64,000 nucleotides of DNA from Streptomyces sp. ICC1 (GTDB lineage: Bacteria; Actinomycetota; Actinomycetes; Streptomycetales; Streptomycetaceae). The stretch spans positions 7,634,869-7,698,868 of the forward strand of contig NZ_CP030287.1 in NCBI RefSeq assembly GCF_003287935.1, read 5' to 3'. The position numbers and the translations under genes were made by a program. The notes under the pieces are model-generated. The model saw only the letters and a program-made list of their open reading frames with translations, did not search any database and was not told where the DNA came from. Positions 24,569 through 55,229 of this stretch are shown here, piece after piece (position 1 is the first letter of the stretch; every line of letters starts with the position of its first letter).

Positions 24569-24575
24569 CCACACC

Positions 24576-24693
24576 CCGTCCGCCCGTCAGCCCGTCAGCC
24601 CGTCAGCCCGTCCGCCCGTCAGCCCGTCCGCCCGTCAGCCCGTCCGCCCGTCCGCCCGTCAGCCCACCCGGACACCCGGACACCCGGACACCC
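24576..24693. repeat. Eight-base tandem repeats
   Basis: About eleven units of CCGTCAGC or CCGTCCGC run from 24576 to about 24664, followed by three units of ACCCGGAC. They lie between two convergent genes in a gap of about 180 bases that holds nothing else recognisable. Slippage would easily change copy number. Confidence 0.8.
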
Positions 24694-40045: not shown

Positions 40046-40116
40046 CGCTCCTCAACAAGGTCCTCAAGGCCGCCGGCAAGCCCGAGGTCTCCGACGCCGA
40101 CCTCGGCGCCAAGTGA
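39988..40116 (+). pseudogene. ssuA: 3' remnant of ssuA (aliphatic sulfonate-binding protein)
   Basis: Forty-two sense codons ending in TGA 40114 encode WAVKAKLIEQPDLTGIYDLT and onward to ADLGAK, the usual C-terminus of SsuA-type sulfonate-binding proteins. ssuB follows 40 bases later with its own AGGAGG, the normal spacing in this operon. The upstream 300 or so codons are missing and replaced by the membrane-protein gene of the island. Without SsuA this transporter should lack its substrate-binding subunit unless another one serves it. Confidence 0.72.
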
Positions 40117-40156
40117 TCCCCTCTTCCCCGTCCCGAATCCCCAGGAGGTGACGACC

Positions 40157-40951
40157 ATGGCCACCACGCTTGCCAAGGCTGCCGAGGGCACCGTAGCGGA
40201 GCAGACGCACGCCGCCCGTATCGAGCACGTCTCGAAGTCCTTCTCCGGCCCGGCCGGATCGCAGCTCGTCCTGGACGACATCAGCCTCGATGTCGCTCCC
40301 GGAGAGTTCGTCACCATCCTGGGCGCCTCGGGATGTGGAAAGTCCACCCTGCTCAACCTCGTCGCGGGGCTCGACAAGCCGACCGCCGGCGCCATCGAGA
40401 CGCCCGGCGGGCGGCCGGCCCTGATGTTCCAGGAGCACGCCCTCTTCCCCTGGCTCACCGCGGGCAAGAACATCGAACTCGCCCTGCGGCTGCGCGGGGT
40501 GGCCAAGGCCGACCGCAAGCCGGAGGCCGAGCGGCTGCTCGAGCTGGTGCGGCTCGGCGGCTCGTACGGCAAGCGGGTCCACGAGCTGTCCGGCGGCATG
40601 CGCCAGCGCGTGGCCCTGGCCAGGGCGCTCGCCCAGGACAGCCAGCTGCTGCTGATGGACGAGCCGTTCGCCGCGCTCGACGCCATCACCCGGGACGTGC
40701 TGCACGGCGAGCTCACCCGCATCTGGGAAGAGACGAACCTGTCCGTCCTGTTCGTCACGCACAACGTCCGCGAGGCCGTACGGCTCGCGCAGCGTGTGGT
40801 CCTGCTGTCCTCGCGGCCCGGGCGGGTCGCGAAGGAGTGGACCGTGGGCATCCCGCAGCCGCGCCGCATCGAGGACGCGGACGTCGCGGAGCTGTCCCTT
40901 GAGATCACTGAACACCTGCGTGGGGAGATCCGCCGCCATGGCCAGCACTGA
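40157..40951 (+). CDS. ssuB: Aliphatic sulfonate ABC transporter ATPase
   Basis: This 264-residue ABC ATPase has Walker A GASGCGKST, signature LSGGMRQRVALARAL and Walker B LLLMDEPFAALD, with the switch histidine in FVTHNVREA. The FQEHALFPWL segment is typical of the SsuB/TauB/NrtD group. It energises sulfonate or taurine uptake with SsuC. AGGAGG (40143-40148) is eight bases before ATG 40157, preferred over a GTG inside the ribosome site. It overlaps ssuC by 14 bases. Confidence 0.9.
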   Translation: MATTLAKAAEGTVAEQTHAARIEHVSKSFSGPAGSQLVLDDISLDVAPGEFVTILGASGCGKSTLLNLVAGLDKPTAGAIETPGGRPALMFQEHALFPWLTAGKNIELALRLRGVAKADRKPEAERLLELVRLGGSYGKRVHELSGGMRQRVALARALAQDSQLLLMDEPFAALDAITRDVLHGELTRIWEETNLSVLFVTHNVREAVRLAQRVVLLSSRPGRVAKEWTVGIPQPRRIEDADVAELSLEITEHLRGEIRRHGQH

Positions 40952-41834
40952 CACCAGCCCCAAGACCTCGGCCAGGAGCGACGACCTCGCCGGCCTGGAG
41001 GCGGGGCTCGACGCCCTCGACGCCGTCCAGACCCACCGCACCCCGGTCCGCGAGGTGCTCCTCAAGAAGGTCCTGCCGCCGATCCTGGCCGTCGGCCTGG
41101 TCCTCGTCGTGTGGCAGATCCTCGTCGCGGCGAAGGTCACCGACGAGACCAAGCTCCCCGCCCTGTCCTCCGTCTGGGACAGCCTGTCCGACATGTGGCT
41201 CAAGGGGACCCTGCTCGAGGTCATCTGGACCAGCGTCTCGCGCGGTCTGCTCGGCTTCCTGCTGGCCCTGGCCATCGGCACCCCGCTCGGCCTGCTGGTC
41301 GCCCGGGTGAAGTTCGTGCGCGCCGCGATCGGCCCGATCCTCCAGGGGCTGCAGTCGCTGCCCTCGGTCGCGTGGGTGCCGCCGGCCGTGCTCTGGTTCG
41401 GACTCAACGACGCGATGATGTACACCGTCATCCTGCTCGGCGCCGTCCCCTCCATCGCCAACGGCCTCGTCTCCGGCATCGACCAGATCCCGCCGCTGTT
41501 CCTGCGGGCCGGCCGCACCCTCGGCGCCACCGGCCTGCGCGGGGCCCGGCACGTGGTCATGCCCGCCGCACTGCCCGGATACCTGGCGGGCCTCAAGCAG
41601 GGCTGGGCCTTCTCCTGGCGCTCGCTGATGGCCGCCGAGATCATCGCCAGCTCGCCCGACCTGGGCCTCGGCCTCGGCCAGCTGCTGGAGAACGGCCGCA
41701 ACAACATCGACCTGCCGGGCGTGTTCCTCGCGATCATCCTGATCCTGGTCGTCGGCATCGCGATCGACCTGCTGATCTTCAGCCCGATCGAGCGGTGGGT
41801 GCTGCGCACCCGCGGCCTGCTGGTCAAGAGCTAG
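40938..41834 (+). CDS. ssuC: Aliphatic sulfonate ABC transporter permease
   Basis: This is a 298-residue permease with six membrane helices and the BPD-transport EAA-type loop (GLKQGWAFSWRSLMAAEIIA). The signature QSLPSVAWVPPAVLWFG is typical of SsuC/TauC proteins. ATG 40938 lies inside the end of ssuB. It forms the transmembrane path for sulfonates, with SsuB as ATPase. The chelatase gene starts four bases after the stop, keeping the sulfur-assimilation order known from Streptomyces. Confidence 0.9.
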   Translation: MASTDTSPKTSARSDDLAGLEAGLDALDAVQTHRTPVREVLLKKVLPPILAVGLVLVVWQILVAAKVTDETKLPALSSVWDSLSDMWLKGTLLEVIWTSVSRGLLGFLLALAIGTPLGLLVARVKFVRAAIGPILQGLQSLPSVAWVPPAVLWFGLNDAMMYTVILLGAVPSIANGLVSGIDQIPPLFLRAGRTLGATGLRGARHVVMPAALPGYLAGLKQGWAFSWRSLMAAEIIASSPDLGLGLGQLLENGRNNIDLPGVFLAIILILVVGIAIDLLIFSPIERWVLRTRGLLVKS

Positions 41835-41838
41835 TCCC

Positions 41839-42660
41839 GTGTTCAGCGCCCACCACGCCCGCCAAGCCGGCCGGCACGACAGGCACGACCGGCAGGACCG
41901 CCACGACCGGCCGGCCCTGCTGGTCATCGCCCACGGCAGCCGCGACCCGCGGCACGCGGCGACCGTGCACGCCCTCACCCGGCGGGTACGGGCGCTGCGG
42001 CCGGGGGTGCGCGTGGAGACGGCCTTCCTGGACTTCGACGGCCCGACCGTCGACCAGTGCGTGGCCTCCCTCCACCTGGCGGGCGTCCGGGAGATCGTGG
42101 CCCTCCCGCTGCTCCTGACGCGGGCGTTCCACGCGAAGTCCGACATCCCGGCGGTCCTCGCCGCGGCCGCGTCCCACCTGCCGGACCTCTCGGTCCGTAC
42201 CGCGGACGTGCTCGGCCCGTCCCCGCTGCTGCTGGCGAACCTCGAACGCCGCCTGTGGGAGGCCGGCCTCACCCCGGCGGACCGCGCCACCACCGGTGTG
42301 GTGCTCGCGTCCGCCGGTTCCTCAGACCCGGAGGCGATCGCAGTGATCGCTGAAACCGCGCGGGAGTGGCGGCACACCGGTTGGTGCGCCGTGCGGCCTG
42401 CGTTCGCCTCCGCTGTTCTCCCCCGTACGGAAGACGCCGTACGGGCCCTGCGCGCGGAGGGCGTCCGCCGGATCGCGGTGGCGCCGTACGTGATCGCCCC
42501 CGGCCGGCTGCCGGACCGCATCGCGGCGGGCGCGGAAGCCGCCGGCGCGGACGTGGTGGCCGACGTCCTGGGGCCCTCCCCGGAACTGGCCCGCCTGCTG
42601 CTGCGCCGCTACGAGGACGCGCTGCGCGCCCCGGCCCGCTTGTCGGCCCTGGCGGCGTAG
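41839..42660 (+). CDS. Sirohydrochlorin chelatase (CbiX/SirB-like)
   Basis: This 273-residue protein has two CbiX halves. The N-terminal half holds LLVIAHGSRDPRH (metal-binding histidine about 32) and LLTRAFHAKSDIP (H98); the second half is degenerate. It inserts cobalt or iron into sirohydrochlorin; here, next to sulfonate uptake genes, iron insertion to make siroheme for sulfite reductase is the likely role. The N-terminus carries an unusual His/Arg/Asp repeat (GRHDRHDRQDRHDR) that may buffer metal. It starts at GTG 41839. Confidence 0.87.
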   Translation: MFSAHHARQAGRHDRHDRQDRHDRPALLVIAHGSRDPRHAATVHALTRRVRALRPGVRVETAFLDFDGPTVDQCVASLHLAGVREIVALPLLLTRAFHAKSDIPAVLAAAASHLPDLSVRTADVLGPSPLLLANLERRLWEAGLTPADRATTGVVLASAGSSDPEAIAVIAETAREWRHTGWCAVRPAFASAVLPRTEDAVRALRAEGVRRIAVAPYVIAPGRLPDRIAAGAEAAGADVVADVLGPSPELARLLLRRYEDALRAPARLSALAA

Positions 42661-42669
42661 CCGGTCTCT

Positions 42670-42703
42670 CCAGCCCCGCCGGCGTTTGAGGCGCGGGGTC
42701 TGG
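42670..42703. terminator. Hairpin after the chelatase gene, common Streptomyces intergenic type
   Basis: CCAGCCCCGCC...GGCGTTTGAGGC...GCGGGGTCTGG forms an imperfect stem ten bases after the stop. Similar GGCGTTTGAGG hairpins are widespread in Streptomyces intergenic regions. Confidence 0.6.
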
Positions 42704-42751
42704 AGTGGAACCAACACCCTGGGGCGGGCATTTGGAAGGACTGGTGGATCG

Positions 42752-43858
42752 TCAGGACTCTTCAATCTCCGACATGAGCAGTCTCAGCGTGAGGGAATGC
42801 TTCTCCGGCGGCAGGGCATCCAGCGCGCCCCGTGCGTAGGCCACCCCGCCGGACACGTCGCCGGACCGGGCGAGCATCAGCCCCCGGTGCATTTCAAGGT
42901 GAGTGGCGAACCGGGGCAGCTCTGCAGGGAGTTCGCGGCGTGCTGCCTCCTGTGCCTCAACGGCTCCGTGCTCGTCACCCAGACGGGCCAGAAGAAGCGA
43001 CAAGAAGACGTTCATCCGCCACCAGGGCACGGCGTAGTCGCTGGTCTGCTCGTACGATCCAGCCTTGTCGAAGATTCGCCGGCCGTCGTCGGCAAGCTTG
43101 AGTGCCGTGGCTCGGTCACCGCGAAGCGCGGCGGCATGGGCCTTACCCATCACAGCATTCAGGAGGCCGAGGGAGGGCCGTTCCGATATGGCCAAGGCTT
43201 GGTCTGCAAGCACGTCAGCCACTCCCAGCGATGCCCCCTCGTAGCCCAGGGCGATAGCTGCACGTCCACGTACCCACACGCGCGCGTCATCGTCTCCAGA
43301 CTCGTCTGCGGCTCTCGCTGCCATCCGGTACCAGTGGACCGCTTTGGAGCCGTCCGACCCGGGAAACGTCTTTGCGTACAGAGTCATCAGCCGGGAAGCC
43401 ACCGACCACAGCCGGGGGTTCTCCAACTGCTGCTGCACGGCGACGAGTTCACCGGAAACCCGACGCTGGATGTCCGCCGCACCCATCGACATGTACTCAG
43501 TGCCGTACGTAGTCAGTTTGGCTTCCCATGTGTCCACTGACGGTCCGCCCCGTAGTCGGGCGGCGAACCCTGCGCTGATCAGATCAGAGGCGATCACGGG
43601 GGCTATGGCAGCCCCGGCGACGTCGGTAAGGAACTCGCGTCGGTCCACTTCACCTTCAAGGACAGCTAGGGGAACGTCGAGAACGGCAGAGAGCGCGGCT
43701 AGGTAGAACGGGCCTGGCCTGACCTTGGAACACTCCCAGTTGCTGACGTACTCCCGCGTCAGCGTCGTGCCGTGCGCGTTGTTGATCTCCGAAGCTAACC
43801 GCCCTTGGCTCCAGCCGCGAGCCTTGCGGAGATCACGGATCAGTTCCCCGATGTCCAT
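42752..43858 (-). CDS. XRE-family regulator with TPR-like C-terminal domain
   Basis: This is a 368-residue protein with an N-terminal helix-turn-helix (IRDLRKARGWSQGRLASEIN, residues about 6-60) and a long helical C-terminal region built of TPR-like units (WYRMAARAADESGDDDARVW; LLNAVMGKAHAAALRGDRA), the plan of peptide- or partner-sensing regulators in actinomycetes. It is divergent from a cluster of small genes. Its own start is preceded by two copies of TGCYACTAG, probably its operator. It may control the small-gene cluster and itself. Confidence 0.85.
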   Translation of the reverse strand: MDIGELIRDLRKARGWSQGRLASEINNAHGTTLTREYVSNWECSKVRPGPFYLAALSAVLDVPLAVLEGEVDRREFLTDVAGAAIAPVIASDLISAGFAARLRGGPSVDTWEAKLTTYGTEYMSMGAADIQRRVSGELVAVQQQLENPRLWSVASRLMTLYAKTFPGSDGSKAVHWYRMAARAADESGDDDARVWVRGRAAIALGYEGASLGVADVLADQALAISERPSLGLLNAVMGKAHAAALRGDRATALKLADDGRRIFDKAGSYEQTSDYAVPWWRMNVFLSLLLARLGDEHGAVEAQEAARRELPAELPRFATHLEMHRGLMLARSGDVSGGVAYARGALDALPPEKHSLTLRLLMSEIEES

Positions 43859-43868
43859 GCGCCCATCT

Positions 43869-43927
43869 TGCTACTAGGGCTGCCACTAGACCGAGGGATT
43901 CTTCGCCTTCCGAGCCGGTTGCCACTA
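43869..43927. promoter_or_regulatory. Repeated TGCYACTAG motif in the XRE/small-gene intergenic region
   Basis: TGCTACTAG (43869-43877) and TGCCACTAG (43881-43889) are direct repeats 12 bases apart, and TGCCACTAC follows at 43920. CTAG is rare in this GC-rich DNA, so the clustering is notable. The first two lie 11-31 bases upstream of the XRE start. Binding by the XRE protein is inferred. Confidence 0.5.
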
Positions 43928-43999
43928 CGGATCACACTGGGCCGGGCTTCCTCGGCAGCGAGACGATCCCGAGCACCGAACGCGACGCGAGGGGTGCGC

Positions 44000-44188
44000 A
44001 TGGTGACGGCAGCACAGCAGGAGACGGCACGGACCGATCAACTCGAACCGGTGCCCGTGTCTGGATGCGGGGTGTGCCTCGCGCTGGTCACGGCGCGTGA
44101 GATCTCGCGGGAAGCCGGCGATCCGTGCGCGGTGGCGGTGCAGAACGAGGAGCTTCGCAACCACCCGCACCGCCGGGCCACGGTATGA
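44000..44188 (+). CDS. Small hypothetical protein
   Basis: This is a 62-residue protein starting at ATG 44000, preceded by GAGGGG. It contains SGCGVCLALVTAREISREAG, with a CxxC pair, and ends in basic residues. It has no signal peptide or membrane segment. The stop overlaps the next ATG (ATGA), the first of several couplings in this small-gene run. The function is unknown. Confidence 0.55.
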   Translation: MVTAAQQETARTDQLEPVPVSGCGVCLALVTAREISREAGDPCAVAVQNEELRNHPHRRATV

Positions 44189-44412
44189 GCGTGATTTCGG
44201 TGATGCGCTACATCCCGTATGTCATGCGGCGGCACCCTTCCGCCGAGACGACAGCGACCGCGCGGTGCCTGGCTCCTGAGTGCGGTTGGTCTGCGGAACC
44301 GACGTCGAACGCTGATGTGTGCAGCGATATGTGCATTCAGCACACTGGCCGCACGGGCCACATGACGTTCGTCCGGGAGTTCTCGGAAGTAGCCGTTGTG
44401 GAGCGTGCCTAG
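44185..44412 (+). CDS. DUF7848-type small protein
   Basis: This is a 75-residue protein with four cysteines spaced as in a zinc ribbon (TARCLAPECGW and NADVCSDMCIQHTGRTGH), matching the small DUF7848-type proteins common in Streptomyces. HTGRTGH is the most conserved segment of that group as I know it. It is probably a metal-binding regulatory or adaptor protein. The start overlaps the previous stop and the stop overlaps the next GTG. Confidence 0.65.
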   Translation: MSVISVMRYIPYVMRRHPSAETTATARCLAPECGWSAEPTSNADVCSDMCIQHTGRTGHMTFVREFSEVAVVERA

Positions 44413-44540
44413 TGACCGACGGCAACGAGCACCAGGACCACGTGCAGCCCAGCCGGCGAAGCGCGCTAGCCGTGACCCTCGGAGCGATCGCATGGATTGG
44501 AGTGGTCGCCTGCATCGTGGCCAAGGGGTGGGGCGCGTGA
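44412..44540 (+). CDS. Tiny single-helix membrane protein
   Basis: The 42-residue product has a hydrophilic N-terminus (TDGNEHQDHVQPSRRSA), one helix (LAVTLGAIAWIGVVACIVAK) and a short end. GTG 44412 overlaps the upstream TAG (TAGTG) and its TGA overlaps the next GTG, so it is embedded in a coupled series. It would be missed by length filters. The function is unknown. Confidence 0.55.
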   Translation: MTDGNEHQDHVQPSRRSALAVTLGAIAWIGVVACIVAKGWGA

Positions 44541-44890
44541 TCCCGGCTGAGCAAGCCCGGGAAGTCCGCTGCGCTCTTCGGGAGATTGCTGCCGAGGATG
44601 CGATGCGTAAGCCGCCCCCGCCGTTCCCGTCGGGCTCGGGTGGCGTGTCGAGCCGTTCCCGGATGACCCTACAGATCACCCGTGTGGTGCTCGTTCGGTT
44701 GGCTCCCGGGGACTCCGAGCTGTTCGCACGGACCGGCGAGACGCGCGTAATTCGGTCCGGCAGACAAGGCCCGGTCATTCACCGGTCGGCAGCCGAACGA
44801 GCACGGTTCCGTGCTCTCGGCTACTGGGACGGGTTCGGAGTCGAGTTCCCGCCGTGCCAGTGCGCGTGGTGCGGGCCGACCCTCCACTGA
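44537..44890 (+). CDS. Small hypothetical protein with C-terminal CxC..C motif
   Basis: This is a 117-residue protein starting at GTG 44537, which overlaps the preceding stop. The N-terminal helix (IPAEQAREVRCALREIAAED) is followed by a linker, a beta-rich part and a C-terminal FPPCQCAWCGPTLH that may bind metal. No known domain is recognised. It belongs to the coupled small-gene run opposite the XRE regulator. Confidence 0.55.
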   Translation: MIPAEQAREVRCALREIAAEDAMRKPPPPFPSGSGGVSSRSRMTLQITRVVLVRLAPGDSELFARTGETRVIRSGRQGPVIHRSAAERARFRALGYWDGFGVEFPPCQCAWCGPTLH

Positions 44891-44946
44891 TCTCCCGTCC
44901 TTCACGGGGCGGGCAACACAACACCTTCAACAGCAACGGAGTTCAC

Positions 44947-45438
44947 ATGTCACAGACCACAGCCCATGAGACCGCTTTACCTTCGTCCAGCCTCCTCACG
45001 GCCACGGCCTTTGCAACCGCCGTTCGTACCGTCGAGAAGGCCAACCCCGAGCTGACGGACGGTATGGCCGATCGGATCGTCAGCGAGGCCGTGAAGTTCG
45101 TCGCGGCGGCAGCACTGAACAGCACTCCGGGCCTGGCACTGCGCCCGTCCCAAGTTGTCGATGAAGGCTGGCACGCGCTCATCACGGACACGAAGTCATA
45201 CGCCGAGCTGTGCCAGCTGCTGGGCCGGTTCGTCCACCACGTCCCGGAAACCCCAGCAACGAAGAAGCACGACACAGCCACTGTCGACCGGACGCTCAAG
45301 GCGATCCGCGAAGCGGGGCACGAACCCGACGAGTACCTGTGGAGCCTGGAAGCACAATCGTCAGTTCTCGTCTCGGCCGATTGCATGCACAGCGAGTGCA
45401 CGGACGGAGGGTCTGGCTGTGCGGCTCCGCCGAGCTAG
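44947..45438 (+). CDS. Glycine-rich-domain-like (GRDP-type) small protein
   Basis: This is a 163-residue protein whose middle (RPSQVVDEGWHALITDTKSY) resembles the V-D-x-x-W-H-x-x-I motif of the glycine-rich-domain-containing protein family (DUF1399-like), followed by GRFVHHVPETP. Helices before and after complete a domain of about 120 residues, and the cysteine-rich end (DCMHSECTDGGSGCA) may bind metal. Similar proteins accompany XRE regulators in Streptomyces. ATG 44947; a 56-base gap separates it from the run upstream. Confidence 0.62.
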   Translation: MSQTTAHETALPSSSLLTATAFATAVRTVEKANPELTDGMADRIVSEAVKFVAAAALNSTPGLALRPSQVVDEGWHALITDTKSYAELCQLLGRFVHHVPETPATKKHDTATVDRTLKAIREAGHEPDEYLWSLEAQSSVLVSADCMHSECTDGGSGCAAPPS

Positions 45439-45499
45439 CAAGGACTCTGGGCGGACAGCATCGTGGACGCACTCTGACCCGCTACCGTTGGCTACGTTC

Positions 45500-45508
45500 T
45501 GCCACTAG
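45500..45508 (+). promoter_or_regulatory. TGCCACTAG motif overlapping a ribosome-binding site
   Basis: The motif found upstream of the XRE gene recurs here, directly joined to AGGAGG and nine bases before GTG 45518. GCTAC precedes it, as in the XRE copy. A bound repressor would block the ribosome site or transcription start. Confidence 0.45.
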
Positions 45509-45517
45509 GAGGATGCG

Positions 45518-45727
45518 GTGAGCGAAGAAGCGCGTCGGGGCGACTGGGCGGATCCTCGGTACCGCGAGGCGGTCACACTGCTGGGCACCTGCCGGACCGT
45601 GAAGAGCCCCAGCCAGCGGCGACGCCGAGTCTGCCCGCACGGCGAGGGTGTGACGGTCATCGTTGACCCGGTCACCGGGCAGGCTCGCAACGTGGCCTGC
45701 GCGGCTTGCTGCTCGTCAACGACCTGA
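45518..45727 (+). CDS. Small hypothetical protein with CAACC end
   Basis: This is a 69-residue protein starting at GTG 45518 with AGGAGG six bases upstream. It contains a basic segment (SPSQRRRRVCPHGEGVTVIV) and ends in VACAACCSSTT, giving four cysteines that could bind zinc. It is the last gene of the XRE-associated group and is closed by a terminator. The function is unknown. Confidence 0.55.
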   Translation: MSEEARRGDWADPRYREAVTLLGTCRTVKSPSQRRRRVCPHGEGVTVIVDPVTGQARNVACAACCSSTT

Positions 45728-45732
45728 GGCGA

Positions 45733-45772
45733 CGAAGAGCCCCATCCGAGCACACGCCGCACGGGGCTTTTC
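45733..45772 (+). terminator. Hairpin terminator with T-run
   Basis: CGAAGAGCCCC pairs with GGGGCTTTTCG (one G-T pair) around a 19-base loop, immediately after the 69-residue gene. TTTT is in the 3' arm, giving a near-canonical intrinsic terminator. Confidence 0.75.
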
Positions 45773-45864
45773 GAGCCTACTGACCTGGTGTTTTTCTAGA
45801 TACCGGGGTGTAGGGTCCGCCGGGGCGGAGCCCCAGGAGACGCGGCGGCACCCGTACCCGGCGG

Positions 45865-46866
45865 CTACGCCCTCGACGCGGCCTCGTCGGCCAGGGCCGT
45901 CAGGTCCTCGACGGACATCGCACCCGGCGGGAGGCCCTCGCGGGCGAAGATGTTCGCGGCGCGCCGGAGCGTGTCGTTGACCGGCGTCGCCACCCCGTGC
46001 AGCCGCCCCAGCAGGACGACCTCCCCGTTGAGGTAGTCGGCCTCCACCGAGCCCGTGCCCCGGGCCAGGCTCTGCCAGGACGACCCTCCCCGCACCCCGG
46101 CCGGCTGCTCCACCCTGCCGTCGCGGGCCGCCGCCTGCTCGGCGTCGGAGGCGTAGGCGATCCCGGCGGCCTCGAAGGCGGCCTTCGCCTCGCGGACCGC
46201 CCGCAGCAGCAGCGCGGCCTTCGCCGGCTCCGGCTCGGGACCGGTGGTCGCCTGGATCGCGTTGCCCAGGTTGCCCAGCAGCTTGGCGTGCTTCCACCGC
46301 ATGACGTCCTCGGCGACCGGCGCCCCGAACCCGGCCTTCTCCAGGTCGGCGGCGATCCGCCGGGCCCGCCCGTCCGCGCCGCCGGCGGCCTTGCCGATGT
46401 GCAGGATCCCGGTCAGCGGCGCGCACAGCGCGGAGACCACCCCGGGCTCCAGGAACGTCGCCGGCAGCCACACGCAGACCCCGTACACGCGGGCGAAGCG
46501 CCGCAGGGCGAGGCGCTCGCTCTCGACGCCGTTCTGCGCGCACAGCACCGGCAGCCGCTGGGCCGCCGTCCCGCCGCCCGCGACCTCCGCATCGCCCCAG
46601 GCGTCGAGCGCGGCGAGCGCGTCCTGGGTCTTGACCGTCAGCAACAGCACGTCGTCCGGGCGCAGTTCGCCGAGCTCGGCCGGGCCGGCGACCACGGGCA
46701 GCCGGTGCACGCGCTCCCCGTCCGCCGTGGTGAGCCGCAGCCCGTCGGCCCGCAGGGCCTCCGCGTGGGCGCCGCGCGCGACGAGGACGACCTCGCCGCC
46801 CGCTTCCGCGAGCCGTCCGCCGATGGTCGCGCCGATCGCCCCGGCGCCGATGATGATGTAACGCAT
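45865..46866 (-). CDS. 2-Dehydropantoate 2-reductase-family oxidoreductase
   Basis: This 333-residue NADPH-dependent enzyme starts with MRYIIIGAGAIGATIGGRLA (dinucleotide-binding GxGxxG). It has the conserved lysine-containing helix RWKHAKLLGNLGNA and a C-terminal helical domain with SSWQSLARGTGSVEADYLNG. The family reduces ketopantoate to pantoate for coenzyme A, but Streptomyces encode several paralogues with unknown substrates, so no gene symbol is given. ATG 46866 gives the standard start; a longer frame adds six residues. It is divergent from the aldo/keto reductase, 44 bases apart. Confidence 0.87.
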   Translation of the reverse strand: MRYIIIGAGAIGATIGGRLAEAGGEVVLVARGAHAEALRADGLRLTTADGERVHRLPVVAGPAELGELRPDDVLLLTVKTQDALAALDAWGDAEVAGGGTAAQRLPVLCAQNGVESERLALRRFARVYGVCVWLPATFLEPGVVSALCAPLTGILHIGKAAGGADGRARRIAADLEKAGFGAPVAEDVMRWKHAKLLGNLGNAIQATTGPEPEPAKAALLLRAVREAKAAFEAAGIAYASDAEQAAARDGRVEQPAGVRGGSSWQSLARGTGSVEADYLNGEVVLLGRLHGVATPVNDTLRRAANIFAREGLPPGAMSVEDLTALADEAASRA

Positions 46867-46910
46867 TCCCCGAGCCTGGCACATCCCGGCTCCTGGGCTA
46901 CCGTCGGGCC

Positions 46911-47768
46911 ATGTCTGTTCATGCGGATGCGACGTTCCTCCTCGGTGGCGACCTGCCCGTACGCCGCCTCGGTCTCGGGACGGGCGGGCTGGTCGGCGAC
47001 GGCTACTGGGGCCCGCGGGCGGGCCGCGCCGAGGCCCGTGCGCTGCTGCGCGCGGCGGTCGAGCGCGGGGTCACCCTGATCGACACCGCCGACAACTACG
47101 GCCCCCACCTGGCCGAGGAGCTGGTCGCCGAGGCCCTGCACCCGTACGGGGAGCGGCTGGTGGTCTCCACCAAGGGCGGGGTGGTGCGCACCGGCCCGGA
47201 CCAGTGGCACCCCGCGGGCCGGCCCGAGCAGTTGCGGGCGATGTGCGAGGCGAGCCTGGCCAGGCTCCGGCTGGACCGGATCGACCTGTACCAGCTGCAC
47301 CGCTTCGACCCGGCCGTCCCGGCGGCGGAGCAGCTGGGGACGCTGGCCGAGCTCCGGGCGGAGGGGAAGATCCGCCACATCGGGCTGAACACGGTGACGG
47401 CGGACCGGCTGCGGGAGGCGCTGGAGACCGTCCCGGTGGCCTCGGTGCAGAACCCGTACAACCTGCTGGACCGCTCCTCGGCGGAGCTCCTCGCACTGTG
47501 CGAGGAGCGCGGGATCGCCTTCCTGCCGTACTACCCGCTGGGCAGCGGCGCCCTGACCCGCGAGAGCGCGGCCGCGCTGACGACGGTCGCCGCCGAGCAC
47601 GGCGCGTCCACCGGCCAGATCGCCCTGGCCTGGCTGCTGCACCACTCCCCCGTGCTGTGCCCCACGCCGGGCACGGGCTCCCCGGACCACCTGGCGGAGA
47701 ACCTGGACGCGGCGACGGTCCGCCTGACCCCGCGCGAGGTGGCCCTGCTGGACGCCCTGACGGGCTGA
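46911..47768 (+). CDS. Aldo/keto reductase
   Basis: This 285-residue TIM-barrel NADPH oxidoreductase has the catalytic tetrad: Asp and Tyr in LIDTADNYGPH, Lys in VVSTKGGVV and His in DLYQLHRFDP. Cofactor-binding segments near the C-terminus (LPYYPLGSGALT and PTPGTGSPDHLAENL) are normal. The substrate is unknown; such enzymes reduce a range of aldehydes and ketones. It is divergent from the ketopantoate-reductase-like gene, so the two may share regulation. Confidence 0.92.
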   Translation: MSVHADATFLLGGDLPVRRLGLGTGGLVGDGYWGPRAGRAEARALLRAAVERGVTLIDTADNYGPHLAEELVAEALHPYGERLVVSTKGGVVRTGPDQWHPAGRPEQLRAMCEASLARLRLDRIDLYQLHRFDPAVPAAEQLGTLAELRAEGKIRHIGLNTVTADRLREALETVPVASVQNPYNLLDRSSAELLALCEERGIAFLPYYPLGSGALTRESAAALTTVAAEHGASTGQIALAWLLHHSPVLCPTPGTGSPDHLAENLDAATVRLTPREVALLDALTG

Positions 47769-47796
47769 GCGGACCCGGGCACGGCGGCCGGCGCAC

Positions 47797-48306
47797 TCAC
47801 CAGTAGGCCGTCGCGTCCCAGGGCTCGAAGAGCGCGAACTCGACCGGGTCGTCGTCCCGGTCGAGGCCGGGCAGCCCCTCGGTCTCGAACCGGCCGCGCT
47901 GCCAGGCGAGCAGGGTGTCGACGAGCCCGTACGGCAGCGGCGGCCCCTGCGGGGCGTGCCGGGGCCAGACGACGAGCGGCCAGGCGTCCGGGTCGGGGCC
48001 CTCGGTGAGCCAGCCGAGCACGTCCGCGTCGTTCGAGGTCGCGAAGGCCAGCAGCCCGCCGGGCTCCGGCCACACCGGGAAGGGGTCCTCGGCCCGCCAT
48101 CCGCCGATGGCCCCCCGGTAGGCCTCGGCGTTCTGCTCCGCGAGCCGCCGGAATCCGCCGTCGGTGCGCAGCGGGGTGTGGAAGCGCAGCCAGTCGCCCC
48201 AGCAGCCGGCGCCGTACCGGTCCATGAGGGCCACGTACTCGGCGGGGAGGCGGGTGCCGAGCTCCTCGAAGAGCCGCTCCCAGGTGCCGCCCCCGAGGTA
48301 CGGGCC
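47797..48306 (-). CDS. SMI1/KNR4 (SUKH)-family protein, 5' end lost at adapter sequence
   Basis: About 170 residues are readable: LFEELGTRLPAEYVALMDRY, the start of a SUKH domain, then GCWGDWLRFHTP, a WPEPGGLLAFATSNDAD strand pair and FEPWDATAYW at the end. SUKH proteins are often immunity proteins or polymorphic-toxin partners, and in Streptomyces many stand alone. Upstream of residue G-G-T-W the frame runs into adapter-like sequence at 48,306, so the native start codon is not in the window. The stop is TGA at 47797. Confidence 0.72.
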   Translation of the reverse strand, partial: GPYLGGGTWERLFEELGTRLPAEYVALMDRYGAGCWGDWLRFHTPLRTDGGFRRLAEQNAEAYRGAIGGWRAEDPFPVWPEPGGLLAFATSNDADVLGWLTEGPDPDAWPLVVWPRHAPQGPPLPYGLVDTLLAWQRGRFETEGLPGLDRDDDPVEFALFEPWDATAYW

Positions 48307-48337
48307 GTCTCTTATACACATCCGAAGCTGCCGACGC
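48305..48337. other. Nextera/Tn5 adapter-like sequence inside the assembly
   Basis: GTCTCTTATACACATC (48307-48322) is identical to the Tn5 mosaic end used in Nextera libraries, and the next 15 bases (CGAAGCTGCCGACGC) match 12 of 15 positions of the adapter continuation TGACGCTGCCGACGA. The translated frames give SYTH.KLPT and MCIRD, known marks of this contaminant in databases. The flanking genes are both cut or altered here, so the join is suspect. Confidence 0.85.
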
Positions 48338-48388
48338 ACCAGAGCACCGATGTCCCCATCCTTGCCCTGGTCCAGAGCAGCCAGGTCC

Positions 48389-50083
48389 GTGTCCGCGTCC
48401 GTGTCCGCGTCCGACCCGTCCCCGGCCGGCCCGCCCGCCGCCCGCCGCCGCTCCGCGCGCGGCCGGTACGCGCTCCCCGTCGCGGCGCTGGCCGCCCTCA
48501 GCCTGGTCACCGCATGCTCCGGCCCGCCCAAGGCGGGCGGCGGGACCACGTCGGACGCCGGCTTCAAGCTCTCCGCGGGCACTCCGGCCGCCGCGGGCGA
48601 GCTGGACTCCTTCACCTGGGCCCTGTACGCGGAACCCCCGACGCTGGACTACATCTCGGCCTTCGACTACCCGCAGAACACGATCCTGTCGAACGTCTGC
48701 GAGAGCCTGATGCGGTGGACCCCGCAGCTCACCATGGCTCCGGGTCTGGCCGAGAAGGCCTCCAACCCCACCCCCCTGACGTGGGTCTACGATCTGCGCG
48801 CGGGCGTGCGCTTCCACGACGGCGGCACGATGACCCCCGAGGACGTCGTCTACAGCCTCGGCCGTCAGATGGACCCGGCGAACGGGGCGGCCTGGAACAG
48901 CAACTTCTCCAACGTCGAGTCCGTCACCAAGACCGGCCCGCTCCAGGTGACCGTCTCGCTGAAGCAGCCCGACTCGCAGTTCCCGCAGTACATGGCGACG
49001 GCGGCCGGCGTGGTCGCCTCCGAGGCCGGCGTGGAGAAGGCCGGCGAGGACTACGGCACCGCCGGCAGCCTCGACTGCACCGGCCCCTTCTCGCTGGGCA
49101 GCTGGAACAAGGGCCAGTCCATCGAGCTCAAGCGCTTCGACGGCTACTGGGGCCCCAAGGCCAAGTCCGCGAAGGCCGTCTTCACCTTCCTCACCGACCC
49201 CTCGGCCCGTACCAACGCCATGCTGAGCGGCGAGGCGGACGGCGGGTACCTGATCCCCACCGAGAGCTACTCCCGGCTGAGCAACAGCGGCACGGGCAAG
49301 CTCTACTTCGGCGAGGGCCTCAGCACCGTCAACGTCAACGTGACCAGCATGAAGGGCGCGCTCGGCGACGTCCGCGTCCGCCGGGCACTGTCCCTGGCCC
49401 TGGACCGGCGCGGCTTCGTCAAGGCGGGCCTGGGCGGCGCGGGCACCGTCACCACCTCGCTCACCACCAAGGCCGCCTGGGCCGAGGCTCCCGAGGACGT
49501 CCGCAAGGCCGCCTTCGACGGGCTCCCCTCGCCCGAGCAGAACATCGAGGCCGCCAAGCGGATGATCGAGGAGGCGGGGGCCACCGGGAAGACGGTGACC
49601 ATCGCCACCAGCTCGATCGGCCAGGACGTCTCGCTGCTGGCCACCGCCGTCCAGGACGCCGGCACCAAGATCGGGCTGAAGGTCGTGCTGAAGACCATCG
49701 CCCCCAACGCCTTCACCTCGCTGTTCACCGATCCCGCGGCGCGCGAGGGCCTCGACATGTTCCCGGAGACGTACTACGACTCCATCACCGACCCGATGGA
49801 CCTGCTGAGCAACTTCCAGACCGGGGCCTACCAGAACTACGCCGGCTACAGCGACGAGGCGTACGACGCGCTGAACGACAAGGCCCGGGCCGAGTACGAC
49901 CCCGCCAAGCGCTTCGCGACCGCCGCCGAAATGCAGAAGAAGGCCGCCGACCAGGTGCTGTGGATCCCGGTCGCCGAGTGGCCGACCGCCGTCTTCCTGA
50001 ACAAGCGGATCACGGGCGCGCCCACCACCATCTCCTACCTCTACCACCCGTGGGCGGCGGACGTCGGGGCGGCCGCGAAATGA
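48389..50083 (+). CDS. Peptide/nickel-type ABC transporter substrate-binding lipoprotein
   Basis: This is a family 5 (DppA/OppA-like) solute-binding lipoprotein of about 564 residues. Lipobox LVTAC is followed by a Gly/Ser linker, then TFTWALYAEPPTLDYI-type start and RAGVRFHDGGTMTPEDVVYS, the family signature. The C-terminal part holds YAGYSDEAYDAL and VLWIPVAEWP. It captures oligopeptides or related solutes for the permeases downstream. Start uncertain: GTG 48389 or 48401, and bases upstream adjoin adapter-like sequence, so the true N-terminus may differ. The stop overlaps the next ATG. Confidence 0.85.
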   Translation: MSASVSASDPSPAGPPAARRRSARGRYALPVAALAALSLVTACSGPPKAGGGTTSDAGFKLSAGTPAAAGELDSFTWALYAEPPTLDYISAFDYPQNTILSNVCESLMRWTPQLTMAPGLAEKASNPTPLTWVYDLRAGVRFHDGGTMTPEDVVYSLGRQMDPANGAAWNSNFSNVESVTKTGPLQVTVSLKQPDSQFPQYMATAAGVVASEAGVEKAGEDYGTAGSLDCTGPFSLGSWNKGQSIELKRFDGYWGPKAKSAKAVFTFLTDPSARTNAMLSGEADGGYLIPTESYSRLSNSGTGKLYFGEGLSTVNVNVTSMKGALGDVRVRRALSLALDRRGFVKAGLGGAGTVTTSLTTKAAWAEAPEDVRKAAFDGLPSPEQNIEAAKRMIEEAGATGKTVTIATSSIGQDVSLLATAVQDAGTKIGLKVVLKTIAPNAFTSLFTDPAAREGLDMFPETYYDSITDPMDLLSNFQTGAYQNYAGYSDEAYDALNDKARAEYDPAKRFATAAEMQKKAADQVLWIPVAEWPTAVFLNKRITGAPTTISYLYHPWAADVGAAAK

Positions 50084-51039
50084 GCTTCCTGCGCTTCGCC
50101 GCACGCCGGCTGGCCGAAATGGCGGCCACCCTGCTCGGCGCCTCCTTCGTGATCTTCGGCGCCCTGTACCTGGCCCCCGGCAACCCGGCGAGCTTCCTCC
50201 TCGGGGGCCGCTCCGCCTCCCCGGAGGCCCTGCAGGCGATCAACGAGCACTACCACCTGGACGACCCGTTCGCGGAGCGGTACCTGCACTGGCTCGGGCA
50301 GGTCGTCCAGGGCGACTTCGGCCGCTCGATCACCTACCGCACCGACGTGTCGCGGCTGCTGGCGGACCGCCTGCCCAACACCCTGATGCTGATCTCGATG
50401 GCGCTCGTACTGGTCCTCGTGTTCGGGCTGATCCTGGGCTGGACCGGCGCGGTCCGCGGCGGGAGCACCGACTCGGCGATCCTGGTGACGACCACCTTCG
50501 CCATCGGCACCCCGTCGTTCGTCGCCGCCGTCCTGCTGCAGGGCCTGTTCGCGGTGCGGCTGCACTGGTTCCCCACCGGGGGAACCGGCGACGGGTTCGG
50601 GCAGATGCTGTGGCACCTGACCCTGCCGGCCGTCGCGCTGGCGCTCTACCTGATCGGCATGCTCGCCCGCGTCACGCGCGCCGCGATGCTCGACGTCCTG
50701 GGCCAGGAGCACGTCACGGTCGCCCGGAGCCGGGGGGTCCGCGACAGCCTGGTCATCCGGCGCCACGTGTTCCGCAACGCCCTGGGCACCGTGCTCACCA
50801 CCGGCGGGCTCATCGTCTCCACCCTGCTCGTCTGCACCGTCCTGGTGGAATCGGCGTTCAGCGTGGGCGGCATCGGCCAGCTCCTCGAACTGTCCACCAC
50901 CACCAAGGACTTCCCCACCGTGCAGGCCATCTCCCTCATCATGGTCGCGCTGTTCATGACGGTGAACCTCGTCGTGGACCTGCTCCACCCGCTGGTCGAC
51001 CCCCGGGTCTCCCTCGACCCCTCGAAGAAGGCCGCGTGA
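50080..51039 (+). CDS. Peptide ABC transporter permease (DppB-type)
   Basis: This is a 319-residue permease with six membrane helices. Typical elements are the N-terminal RLAEMAATLLGASFVIFGAL, the periplasmic HLDDPFAERYLHWLGQVVQG and the EAA loop ending TVARSRGVRDSLVIRRHVFR. It forms half of the transmembrane channel with the DppC-type subunit encoded next. ATG 50080 overlaps the binding-protein stop; its own stop overlaps the next GTG. Confidence 0.92.
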   Translation: MSFLRFAARRLAEMAATLLGASFVIFGALYLAPGNPASFLLGGRSASPEALQAINEHYHLDDPFAERYLHWLGQVVQGDFGRSITYRTDVSRLLADRLPNTLMLISMALVLVLVFGLILGWTGAVRGGSTDSAILVTTTFAIGTPSFVAAVLLQGLFAVRLHWFPTGGTGDGFGQMLWHLTLPAVALALYLIGMLARVTRAAMLDVLGQEHVTVARSRGVRDSLVIRRHVFRNALGTVLTTGGLIVSTLLVCTVLVESAFSVGGIGQLLELSTTTKDFPTVQAISLIMVALFMTVNLVVDLLHPLVDPRVSLDPSKKAA

Positions 51040-51890
51040 GTGCCGTCCTGGTGCGCCGGCCGGGCCTCTCCCGGTTCCGGACCACTCGCGCCCCCCTCTC
51101 CGTGCTCTGCGCCGGGTTCGTCGCCGTCGTCGTCCTCGTCGCGGTGCTCGCCCCCTGGATCACCCCCTACGATCCCAACACCGCCGACCTGGGCAACGCC
51201 CTCGCGGGCCCTTCCGCCGACCACCTCCTCGGGGTCGACGCCTCCGGCCGCGACACGCTGTCGCGGCTGATCCTGGGAGCCCGCACCTCCCTCCTCGGCC
51301 CGCTCGGCGTGGTCGCCTTCTCCACCGCGGCCGGCGTGGCCATCGGCACCGCCGCCGCGTGGCGGGGCGGCTGGCTTGACTCGGTCCTGTCCCGCAGCAC
51401 CGAGCTGGTCTTCGCCTTCCCCGGCATGCTGCTCGCCATCCTGATCGTCTCGGTGTACGGCGAGGGGCTGCTCGCCCCCGTCATCGCCCTGGCCATCGCC
51501 TACCTGCCCTACGTCAGTCGGCTCACCCGCTCCCTCGTCCTGGCCGAACGCTCCCGCCCGTACGTGGAGGCCTACCGGGTGCAGGGCCACTCGGGGGCGC
51601 AGATCTGCCTGCGCCACGTCATCCCCGCCGTCATGCCCGTCGTCCTGGCCCAGTCCACGATCAACTTCGGCTACGCCCTGATCGACCTGGCCGGGCTCTC
51701 CTTCCTCGGGCTGGGCGTACCGGCCCTGACCCCCGACTGGGGCCGCATGGTCTTCGACGGCAACGCCGCCATCCAGGCCGGGTACCCGCTCTCGGCGGTC
51801 GTGCCGTGTGTGGCCATCGTGCTGACCGTGGTCGCCTTCAACGTCGTCGGCGAGCGCTGGGCCGACAAGGTAGCCAGGAGGACCCCATGA
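51036..51890 (+). CDS. Peptide ABC transporter permease (DppC-type)
   Basis: This is a 284-residue permease with six helices. LLGVDASGRDTLSRLILGAR is the hallmark of the DppC/OppC group, and the EAA loop is in YVEAYRVQGHSGAQICLRHV. It pairs with the DppB-type subunit. GTG 51036 overlaps the previous stop and its own TGA overlaps the ATG of the first ATPase gene, so all five genes are translationally coupled. Confidence 0.92.
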   Translation: MSAVLVRRPGLSRFRTTRAPLSVLCAGFVAVVVLVAVLAPWITPYDPNTADLGNALAGPSADHLLGVDASGRDTLSRLILGARTSLLGPLGVVAFSTAAGVAIGTAAAWRGGWLDSVLSRSTELVFAFPGMLLAILIVSVYGEGLLAPVIALAIAYLPYVSRLTRSLVLAERSRPYVEAYRVQGHSGAQICLRHVIPAVMPVVLAQSTINFGYALIDLAGLSFLGLGVPALTPDWGRMVFDGNAAIQAGYPLSAVVPCVAIVLTVVAFNVVGERWADKVARRTP

Positions 51891-52933
51891 GCCCGGTGCA
51901 CACCCTTGAGATCCAGGGGCTGCGGCTGCGCCTGCCGGACACCGCCCGGCCCGTCCTGGACGGGGTCGACCTCGCCGTCGGCCCCCGCGAGACGGTCGCG
52001 CTGGTCGGCGAGTCCGGATCCGGCAAGAGCCTCACCTCGCGGAGCGTGCTGGGGCTGCTGCCCGGGGGCGCCCGGGCGGAGGGCCGGGTGCGGGTGGTCG
52101 GCGATGACGTGCTGACGATGACGCCCGCGCAGCTGCGGGTGCTGCGGACCGGCACGGCGGCCATGATCTTCCAGGATCCCCGGGCGGCCGTGAACCCGAT
52201 GCGCCGCGTCGGCGACTTCCTCACCGAGAGCCTGCGGCTGAACGCCAAGGCGTCCAAGGCGACCGCCGAGGAGCGGGCGGTGGAGATGCTGGAGGCCGTC
52301 GGCCTCACGGCGGGGGCGCTGCGCAAGTATCCCGGCCAGTTGTCCGGCGGGATGCTGCAACGGGTCGTGATCGCGGCCGCGTTGATGGGCGATCCCGCCC
52401 TGATCCTCGCCGACGAGCCCACCACGGCTCTGGACGTCACCACCCAGGCCGAGGTGGTCGCCCTCCTCGGTGATCTGCGCGAACGCTTCGGCACCGGGCT
52501 GCTGTTCGTCACGCACGACCTCGGACTCGCCGCCGCGATCAGCGACCGCGTGTACGTGATGTACGCGGGCCGGATCGTGGAAACGGGCCCGGCCGACGAG
52601 CTGTTCACCCGGCCCCGCCACCCGTACACGGTGGCGCTGCTGGACTCCACCCCGCGCCTGGACGGGCCGCGGGGGCGGCTCGCCGCCATCGACGGCCGGC
52701 CCCCGGGCCTGCGCGAGGAGCTCACCGGTTGCCCCTTCGCGGCGCGCTGCGCGTTCGCCACCGACGTGTGCACGCGCGAGGCACCGGAGCTCCTCCCGGT
52801 CGCCGGCGAGCCGGGCCGGCTGACCTCCTGCCACCACGGCGACCTGGTCGCGCGGGCTGAACGGGACCGCGCGGAGCGTACGGAGCGTACGGACGGCACG
52901 GAAGGTACGGAACGGAAGGAACTCCACTCATGA
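51887..52933 (+). CDS. Peptide ABC transporter ATPase (DppD-type)
   Basis: This is a 348-residue ABC ATPase: Walker A GESGSGKSLTSR, signature LSGGMLQRVVIAAAL, Walker B LILADEPTTALDV and H-loop FVTHDLGLA. The C-terminal oligopeptide/dipeptide extension carries the cysteine motif CPFAARCAFATDVC, found in this group and thought to bind a [4Fe-4S] cluster. The final 25 residues are a charged repeat (RTERTDGTEGTERKE). The stop overlaps the DppF-type ATG. Confidence 0.93.
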   Translation: MSPVHTLEIQGLRLRLPDTARPVLDGVDLAVGPRETVALVGESGSGKSLTSRSVLGLLPGGARAEGRVRVVGDDVLTMTPAQLRVLRTGTAAMIFQDPRAAVNPMRRVGDFLTESLRLNAKASKATAEERAVEMLEAVGLTAGALRKYPGQLSGGMLQRVVIAAALMGDPALILADEPTTALDVTTQAEVVALLGDLRERFGTGLLFVTHDLGLAAAISDRVYVMYAGRIVETGPADELFTRPRHPYTVALLDSTPRLDGPRGRLAAIDGRPPGLREELTGCPFAARCAFATDVCTREAPELLPVAGEPGRLTSCHHGDLVARAERDRAERTERTDGTEGTERKELHS

Positions 52934-53748
52934 CGACGACGACGGCGACCGCGGCGAAGACCGTCCTGGAAGTCGCGGGCCTGTACCGGTCCTTCGGCGG
53001 TGTCCGGGCCGTGGACGACGTGTCGTTCGTGCTGCCCGAGGGCGGCTCCCTGGGCATCGTCGGCGAATCGGGGTCGGGCAAGACGACCACCGCCCGCATC
53101 GTGGTAGGCCTGGAGCGCGCGGACACGGGCCGGGTCCTGATCCACGGCCGCGACCGGGGCGAGCACCGGCGCGGCAAGGCCGGGCGCCTGGAGCGGGCCC
53201 GGGAGATCCAGATGGTCTTCCAGGACCCCTTCCTGTCCCTGGACCCGCGCACCACGGTGGGCGGAGCGCTGTGGGAGACCCTGAAGCTGCACTTCCCCGG
53301 CACCGACCACACCCGCCGGATCACCGAACTGCTCGACCAGGTCGGCCTCGGGGCCCGCGAGGCCGACGCCCTGCCCCGACGGCTCTCGGGCGGGCAGCGC
53401 CAGCGCGTCGCGATCGCCCGGGCGCTGGCGGTCGAACCGTCCGTCCTCGTCCTGGACGAGGCGGTGGCCGCCCTGGACGTCTCGGTGCAGGCGCAGATCC
53501 TGAACCTGCTCTTCGACATCCGCGAACAGACCGGCATCGGCTACCTGTTCATCACCCACGACCTCGGCGTCGTCCGCTGTGTCACCGATGAAGTGATCGT
53601 CATGCGGAACGGCCGGATCGTGGAGGCGGGACCGACGGCACAGGTCCTCGCCGACCCCCAGCACCCTTACACGCGCCTGCTCCTGGAGTCCGTACCCCGC
53701 CCGGGGTGGGACCCGCGGGGCATCGCCGCCGCGCGCCGCGCCTTGTGA
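52930..53748 (+). CDS. Peptide ABC transporter ATPase (DppF-type)
   Basis: This is a 272-residue ABC ATPase: Walker A GESGSGKTTTAR, signature LSGGQRQRVAIARAL, Walker B VLVLDEAVAALDV (with Ala-Val where most have Pro-Thr/Val-Ser) and H-loop FITHDLGVV. It lacks the cysteine-rich C-terminal extension of its partner and is on the short side for DppF. It is the last gene of the operon; five-base-repeat-like low-complexity DNA follows. Confidence 0.92.
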   Translation: MTTTTATAAKTVLEVAGLYRSFGGVRAVDDVSFVLPEGGSLGIVGESGSGKTTTARIVVGLERADTGRVLIHGRDRGEHRRGKAGRLERAREIQMVFQDPFLSLDPRTTVGGALWETLKLHFPGTDHTRRITELLDQVGLGAREADALPRRLSGGQRQRVAIARALAVEPSVLVLDEAVAALDVSVQAQILNLLFDIREQTGIGYLFITHDLGVVRCVTDEVIVMRNGRIVEAGPTAQVLADPQHPYTRLLLESVPRPGWDPRGIAAARRAL

Positions 53749-53782
53749 GGGGGCCGTGGGCGCGGCGGCGCCCACGGCCGCC

Positions 53783-53822
53783 ACGCCAGCACGCCAGCAC
53801 GCCAGCACGCCAGTACGCCAGC
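53783..53822. repeat. Five tandem copies of an eight-base unit
   Basis: ACGCCAGC is repeated five times (fourth copy ACGCCAGT) between the ABC operon and the deiminase gene. It resembles the eight-base tandem repeats near 24.6 kb in period but not in sequence. Confidence 0.8.
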
Positions 53823-53869
53823 ACCTCAACGCATTCGACCGTCCACGCACGACTGATCGGAGAGCAGAG

Positions 53870-55015
53870 ATGAACGAGCACACCGTACGGACTCTGGACA
53901 GACGGGGTTTCCTGACCGCGGCGGGCGTCACCGCCGCCGGCGCCGCCATCGCGGCGGTCGGCGGGCAGGCCTTCGCGGCCGTCCGCCCGTCGGCTGCGGC
54001 CGCCGCCGGGAGCTTCGCCGTCCCGATCGACACCGTCCGGCACACCCGGACCTGGATGGCGTGGCCCGACAGCTCCGCCATCTGGGGCCGCCAGCTGGCC
54101 GGCGTACAGGCGAACATAGCCCTCATCGCGAAGACCATCGCGAAGTACGAGCCGGTCGTCATGTGTGCCAACTCCGCGAGCGTCTCCAAGGCCAGGAGCG
54201 CCTGCGGTTCGGCCGTCACCGTCATCAGCACGATCCCGGTCGACGACTGCTGGATGCGCGACAGCGGCCCGGTGTTCCGTACCAACGGGGCGGGCGGCCT
54301 GGACGCGGTCGGCCTGAACTTCAACGGCTGGGGCAACCAGCAGACCCACGCCAAGGACTCCCTGGTCGCCGGCCGGGTCGCCGCCTACGCCGGAGTGCCG
54401 TTCTCCACCGCGGGCTTCATCGGCGAGGGCGGCGCGGTGGAGACGGACGGCGCCGGCACCCTCATGGCCACCCGCAGCTCCCTCATCAACCCGGACCGCA
54501 ACCCGAGCCTCAGCCAGGCCCAGCTGGAAGCGGCCATGTGCGCCGCCTTCGGCGCCTCCAAGGTCGTCTGGTTCAAGGGCGTCCTCGGCCGGGACATCAC
54601 CGACGACCACGTCGACGCGACGTCCCGGTTCCTCTCGGAGGGCTCGGGCCTGGTGCAGTGGCCGCTCGCCAGCGACACGGACGCCTGGTCTAAGGACGCG
54701 CGCCAGCAGTTCCAGATCCTGTCCACCACCACCAACGCCCAGGGGCACCCGGTCGCGGTCACCAAGATCCAGGGCCCGAACTACGACAAGATCCGCTCCA
54801 CGAGCCCCGACTTCGTGGCCGCCTACGCCAACTACTACGTGTGCAACGGCGCGGTCATCTCCTCGCAGTTCGGTGACGCGAGCGCGGACGCCGCGGCCAG
54901 GGTCACCCTCCAGCGGGCCTTCCCGGGCCGGACCATCGAGCAGCTCAACACCGACAGCCTCGGCGCGGGCGGCGGCGGCATCCACTGCGTCACCCAGCAG
55001 CAGCCGGTCCCGTAA
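53870..55015 (+). CDS. Tat-exported agmatine deiminase/peptidylarginine deiminase-family enzyme
   Basis: This is a 381-residue protein with a twin-arginine signal (DRRGFLTAAGVTAAGAAIAA, cut near AFAA). The deiminase core follows: TWMAWPDSSAIW, DDCWMRDSGPVF, FIGEGGAVETDG, DDHVDATSRF and the nucleophile cysteine C373 in GGGGIHCVTQQQP. It hydrolyses the guanidine group of agmatine or peptidyl-arginine, here outside the cell. All catalytic residues I can place (Asp, Glu, His, Cys) are present. ATG 53870 follows GGAGAGCAGAG. Confidence 0.92.
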   Translation: MNEHTVRTLDRRGFLTAAGVTAAGAAIAAVGGQAFAAVRPSAAAAAGSFAVPIDTVRHTRTWMAWPDSSAIWGRQLAGVQANIALIAKTIAKYEPVVMCANSASVSKARSACGSAVTVISTIPVDDCWMRDSGPVFRTNGAGGLDAVGLNFNGWGNQQTHAKDSLVAGRVAAYAGVPFSTAGFIGEGGAVETDGAGTLMATRSSLINPDRNPSLSQAQLEAAMCAAFGASKVVWFKGVLGRDITDDHVDATSRFLSEGSGLVQWPLASDTDAWSKDARQQFQILSTTTNAQGHPVAVTKIQGPNYDKIRSTSPDFVAAYANYYVCNGAVISSQFGDASADAAARVTLQRAFPGRTIEQLNTDSLGAGGGGIHCVTQQQPVP

Positions 55016-55091
55016 CGGCGGGCCCCGCCCCGCCACCCGAGGACGGAGCCACCCGACCGCCGGGCCGCCAGGCCGCCGGACGGGAGAACGC

Positions 55092-55124
55092 GTCTGGCCC
55101 CCTGCTGACCACGGGGGGCCAGAC
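55092..55124 (+). terminator. Hairpin terminator after the deiminase gene
   Basis: GTCTGGCCCCC pairs perfectly with GGGGGCCAGAC around an 11-base loop, 77 bases after the deiminase stop and ahead of the PNPOx-family gene. Confidence 0.75.
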
Positions 55125-55229
55125 AGCCTTTCCGGCCCTTCCGCCGGGTCCGCGCGTCGGACGGGGGCGGAGGCGGGAGGCCGCGTTCTACTGGCAGGCA
55201 CGGAGATCCGTCCCCGCTGTGGAGGTCGC

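Follow-up and report, generated by a model that had tools for sequence, protein, structure and literature searches.

Do the genes that face each other near 48.3 kb belong side by side in the chromosome of Streptomyces sp. ICC1? The window, by which we mean the whole stretch of DNA that was analysed, comprises 64,000 nucleotides (G000:C1:7634869-7698868) of a genome (G000) that is presented as one contig of 9,034,319 bases. A SUKH-type gene on the minus strand (47797-48304) loses its start here, and the gene of an ABC solute-binding protein starts with an ATG at 48350 on the plus strand. The first-pass annotation had placed a piece of sequencing adapter exactly between the two, and this placement held. 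The following features are referred to in the text.

39988..48304, no strand assigned: left contig, continuous in reverse with sequence at G000:C1:8275.5 kb; one stretch in the relative G280 apart from indels, and G232 and G344 share its neighbours
39988..40114, plus strand: exact 127-bp repeat, read as a contig-end overlap; an ABC substrate-binding protein gene loses its start at this point, and the homology of the relatives switches here
45865..46884, minus strand: ketopantoate-reductase-like gene (Pfam ApbA), a true neighbour on the left contig in 3/3 aligned relatives
46911..47768, plus strand: aldo/keto reductase gene (Pfam PF00248), true neighbour of the SUKH gene, with the order kept in 3/3 aligned relatives
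47797..48304, minus strand: C-terminal portion of a SUKH (SMI1/KNR4-like) gene with two domains, lacking a start, assigned by homology
48305..48340, plus strand: degraded Nextera read-through adapter, with mosaic end (48305-48323), i5 tail (48324-48337) and three extra bases
48341..55016, plus strand: right segment, colinear with G280, G089 and G098 to about 55.0 kb; true left neighbour at G000:C1:4695.5 kb
48350..50083, plus strand: oligopeptide-type ABC solute-binding protein gene (SBP_bac_5; Pfam PF00496, E 9.6e-67)

Alignment of window 48305-48337 with the Nextera read-through adapter (mosaic end followed by the i5 tail) showed 29/33 identical bases. Bases 48305-48323 (CCGTCTCTTATACACATCC) agree with the mosaic-end reference used (CTGTCTCTTATACACATCT) at 17/19 positions, with an exact run of 16 bases, and the 14 bases directly 3' of the mosaic end match the i5 tail at 12 positions. 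A search for the 19-mer allowing up to three mismatches revealed this single match in the window and no match in 100 dinucleotide shuffles. The mosaic end starts straight after genomic sequence: homology to G280 extends to 48304, and alignments of the other two aligned relatives reach 48014 and 47772. To the right, alignment resumes at 48341 in three of four relatives and at 48415 in G098. Since homology ends at 48304 and resumes at 48341, the foreign piece extends from 48305 to about 48340.

The earlier reading of the adapter, 16 identical bases and then 12 of 15, was right in identity and coordinates; its limits of 48305-48337 are correct for the adapter identity, but the true foreign piece is a few bases longer. 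The final three bases after 48337 may be a miscalled index; bases 48338-48345 of the window copy match the i5 index TCTACTCT at 2/8 positions. The copy at window 48305 and another at G000:C1:8903553 have identical miscalled bases (CATCCGAAGCTGCCGACGCACCA), which perhaps represent a systematic miscall in which T is often read as C. The peptides encoded by this piece had been called known contaminant signatures. That they are adapter-encoded is evident directly from the sequence, but their status as signatures in print was not confirmed: a literature search returned, by title, no paper on adapter contamination and one on in vitro transposition.

The sequence to the left of the adapter has its continuation elsewhere in the genome. 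We found the N-terminal part of the SUKH gene at about G000:C1:8274968-8275490 on the plus strand, 592 kb from the window part. Among the 12 best non-own loci covering most of the query (a partial second match in G048 was excluded), 11 carry a second SUKH-like domain about 640 bases upstream of the homologous part, with G102 as the exception. The gene is whole in G280, where it encodes 395 residues, and split in two in G000. Contig C9 of G280 holds, in one stretch, the counterpart of C1:8270199-8275490, a gene that we labelled DUF1697-like, the SUKH gene and the counterpart of window 48304 to 39988; DNA identity is 84-91%, and the stretch is continuous apart from indels. The order is kept in G232, where the SUKH region is shortened, and G344 has these neighbours but lacks most of the SUKH gene. 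The Pfam model SMI1_KNR4 scored 21.6 bits (E 3.5e-4) for the window part and 24.7 bits for the intact G280 protein, both under the curated cut-off of 25.4, and a Pfam search with the N-terminal part alone gave no match. Most of the listed homologs carry PF09346 and PF14568, and several are named SMI1/KNR4; the SUKH label is therefore based on homology.

Two further observations concern this side. Window 42657-45841, a stretch of 3.2 kb with lower G+C (mostly about 0.64-0.66) and, by eye, a regulator-like gene and small ORFs, is absent from 3/3 aligned relatives and may be a natural insertion. At G000:C1 ~8275.5-8276.0 kb, the N-terminal part of the SUKH gene is followed by GC-rich junk and then by other genes; several tiny contigs have possibly been joined there.

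An ortholog of the SBP_bac_5 gene to the right of the adapter was detected in four of seven closer relatives, with 88-90% DNA identity; G232 and G061 showed no match to the gene, and G344 only a paralog. In all four relatives with the ortholog, the directly upstream gene shows 90-92% protein identity to an agmatine-deiminase-like gene of G000 at C1:4695519-4696526, which lies 2.99 Mb from the right flank in the window. The gap between the agmatine-deiminase-like and the solute-binding genes is about 110-135 bases in these relatives. An agmatine-deiminase-like gene (Pfam PAD_porph) was likewise found upstream in 7/7 loci with 62-78% identical solute-binding proteins, adjoining in two and about 1.1-1.2 kb off in five, and none was found within the stretch examined at four loci with 37-50% identical paralogs.

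An agmatine-deiminase-like gene at 990 kb was also considered as the partner of the right flank and rejected: identity to the G014 protein is 46% for this gene and 76% for the 4.696-Mb copy, and it is the latter that the four close relatives match at 90-92%. As a counter-sign, of the two adjoining amidohydrolase-like genes, the neighbour of the 990-kb copy is closer to that of G004 (89% identity) than the neighbour of the 4.696-Mb copy (85%). On its downstream side the C1:4695519-4696526 gene adjoins ComF/HPF-like sequence (labels by eye). At about C1:4695.4-4695.5 kb the agmatine-deiminase-like gene meets these ComF/HPF-like genes, and a further join between them is probable. At the far end of the right segment, alignments to three relatives end near 55.0-55.1 kb (window 55016-55136), with an extra 316-base match to G098 at 56.0 kb; this stop represents either natural divergence or another join.

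Linkage across 48.3 kb is thus unsafe, as the first-pass annotation had warned, since the true partners of both flanks are elsewhere in the genome (8.275 Mb and 4.696 Mb). The warning was right but too narrow: adapter remnants occur genome-wide, and the same window holds a join that is free of adapter. At 39987/39988 the homology of the relatives switches. In five of seven, the window sequence as far as 39978-39987 is found at a single locus (in G061 the match is shorter and ends at 39969), and from 39964-39988 onward it is found in all seven at a different locus. Bases 39988-40114 match C1:4997808-4997934 exactly over 127 bases. The same region matches C1:8999422-8999549 exactly over 128 bases, at the end of a piece of ~1.0 kb (C1:8998550-8999549). 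This piece in turn starts with 127 bases identical to C1:2454625-2454751. In G280 the pieces are united in a single gene, which encodes an ABC substrate-binding protein of 377 residues (sulfonate type, judged by eye) and has a GTPase-like gene upstream of it. No Ns are present in the window.

De Bruijn contigs assembled with k=127, a usual largest k of SPAdes, leave exact 127-base shared ends. The case described here is alike in that exact 127-bp ends are common to pieces that are neighbours in G280; it differs in that these ends are buried within one molecule, presumably by the stringing of contigs. Judged from these sequence comparisons, 39987/39988 is a second false join, without adapter, so that 'everything before 48.3 kb', in the words of the earlier warning, is itself not one piece. 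Three or more segments that are not true neighbours make up the window: the sequence to 39987, 39988-48304 with the adapter to 48340, and the sequence from 48341 on.

A search of the whole genome for the 14-base core of the mosaic end revealed 13 occurrences, compared with 0 for the control. With up to three mismatches allowed, the 19-base mosaic end was found 162 times (74 plus, 88 minus), compared with one match for the control, the pattern read backwards. None of the 162 is exact; three have one mismatch, 89 have two and, by subtraction, 70 have three. The absence of exact mosaic ends suggests that clean adapters were removed by trimming and damaged ones left. Five pairs of sites with up to two mismatches lie less than 100 bases apart. 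Four of these are plus-then-minus pairs (33-94 bases apart), the facing orientation expected where two contig ends abut, and the fifth consists of two minus copies in tandem. Of the remnants with up to two mismatches, 75/92 are in the second half of the molecule, and their spacing against order gave a rho of -0.73.

Any mosaic-end match was detected in 13 of the 61 genomes of the relatives search, the own genome included. Eight relatives identified as consisting of one contig (G005, G007, G009, G012, G014, G026, G033 and G046) have 0 copies, and the 12 other genomes with matches have about 60 to 1140 contigs each. The highest count after 162 was 16 (G030), and some of the draft relatives, unlike G000, have exact copies. 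In the 12 drafts, 55/56 minus-strand matches begin within 112 bases of a contig start (sole exception G019:C14:53076), and of the 48 plus-strand matches the 20 checked all stop no more than 65 bases short of a contig end.

The tails following the mosaic end were read at 43 distinct sites, a subset of the 162, with at least nine matching bases as threshold. Five sites go straight into Ns. Among the 38 readable tails, 29 match an adapter tail (18 i5, 11 i7) and nine match neither; for random tails, nine matching bases were reached by 219 of 8959. All four perfect i7 tails (15/15) are followed by the index TAGGCATG, which is tabulated as N706 (PMC7589761), and two perfect i5 tails differ in their index, one having TCTACTCT and the other GCTACCCC. 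Several copies continue with noisy primer-like bases and A runs, and primer-like sequence and A runs after the adapter have been described for short Nextera XT inserts (PMC3906532). The succession of genome, mosaic end, i5 or i7 tail, index, primer and A run is the same as in the Nextera and Nextera XT read-through of that description. The difference from it is that the read-through survives here inside an assembled one-contig genome and that each copy has at least one mismatch. Adaptors are among the common contaminants of submitted assemblies (NCBI screening, FCS-GX; PMC10898089); compared with the contamination described there, the present remnants are degraded and located inside one molecule. 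It is for the window copy that a remnant was demonstrated to mark a false join.

A real chromosomal rearrangement, which brought half of a SUKH gene beside an oligopeptide operon and in which the adapter-like bases are incidental, would explain why both parts of the SUKH gene are in the genome, since both would persist after an inversion or translocation. We nevertheless consider it very improbable in view of the 36 foreign bases of adapter identity between the flanks, the 162 mosaic-end-like pieces genome-wide, the exact 127-bp contig overlap at the second junction in the same window and the different true partners of the flanks, 0.59 and 2.99 Mb away. The position of these partners also makes it highly improbable that the adjacency is correct, with neighbouring contigs well ordered and the adapter filling just the small gap between them. 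A correct order would likewise put an adapter between two real segments, but the left flank continues in G280 and G232 into sequence that is at 8.275 Mb in G000, and the 4.696-Mb sequence lies before the right flank in all four relatives that have the ortholog.

Tn5 has the 19-base mosaic end as its recognition end, and a match of 17/19 could be a mosaic end left in the chromosome by a Tn5/IS50 element or a laboratory Tn5 insertion. This origin is extremely improbable, as the mosaic end is followed by an i5 tail and other copies enter a library index, primer-like sequence and A runs, which to our knowledge no transposon carries. A natural family of short repeats resembling the mosaic end by chance could account for 162 copies in one genome. 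Its probability appears vanishingly small given the 0 copies in the 8/8 relatives identified as one contig, with the 12 other bearers consisting of about 60 to 1140 contigs, the contig-end position of 55/56 minus-strand and 20/20 checked plus-strand matches and the i7 index common to copies.

The best explanation of the adapter-marked adjacency is almost certainly a laboratory or assembly artefact that joined unrelated segments. A short Nextera insert would have been read through into the i5 adapter, and the degraded adapter copy, missed by trimming, would have remained as the right-hand terminus of a short-read contig, window 39988-48340. This contig would then have been abutted, with no Ns in between, to an unrelated one (from 48341 on) as contigs were strung into one 9.03-Mb molecule. 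We infer that clean adapters were removed by trimming, that assembly was run with k=127, and that the contigs were concatenated without supporting evidence. The 9.03-Mb 'chromosome' probably consists of concatenated short-read contigs, and it is quite likely that the whole genome represents at least a hundred of them placed end to end in an order unrelated to the chromosome.

Given these results, a gene neighbourhood and a truncated gene can be dismissed as false, and gene order should not be read across 39987/39988 or 48305-48340. If the whole genome is concatenated, claims on gene order, operons, gene clusters and pseudogenes are unsafe at marked and unmarked joins alike. The genome scores 100% for completeness and 1.19% for contamination. 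These values failed to reveal the joins, which suggests that a finished-looking genome with good completeness and contamination scores can hide many of them. Two cheap screens could be applied to other single-contig genomes, one for degraded mosaic ends and one for exact 127-bp internal repeats at synteny switches.

A strict ordering of the contigs by size was refuted by the 8.35-kb contig at 7.68 Mb and by the 55-kb spacing in the first Mb. Near window 14-15 kb, where size order had predicted another join, inspection revealed a repeat-rich stretch near 14.77 kb and nothing decisive, and no join is proposed at this site. Elsewhere in the window, a tandem array with an 8-base unit (CCCGTCAG/CCCGTCCG type) is located at 24564-24681.
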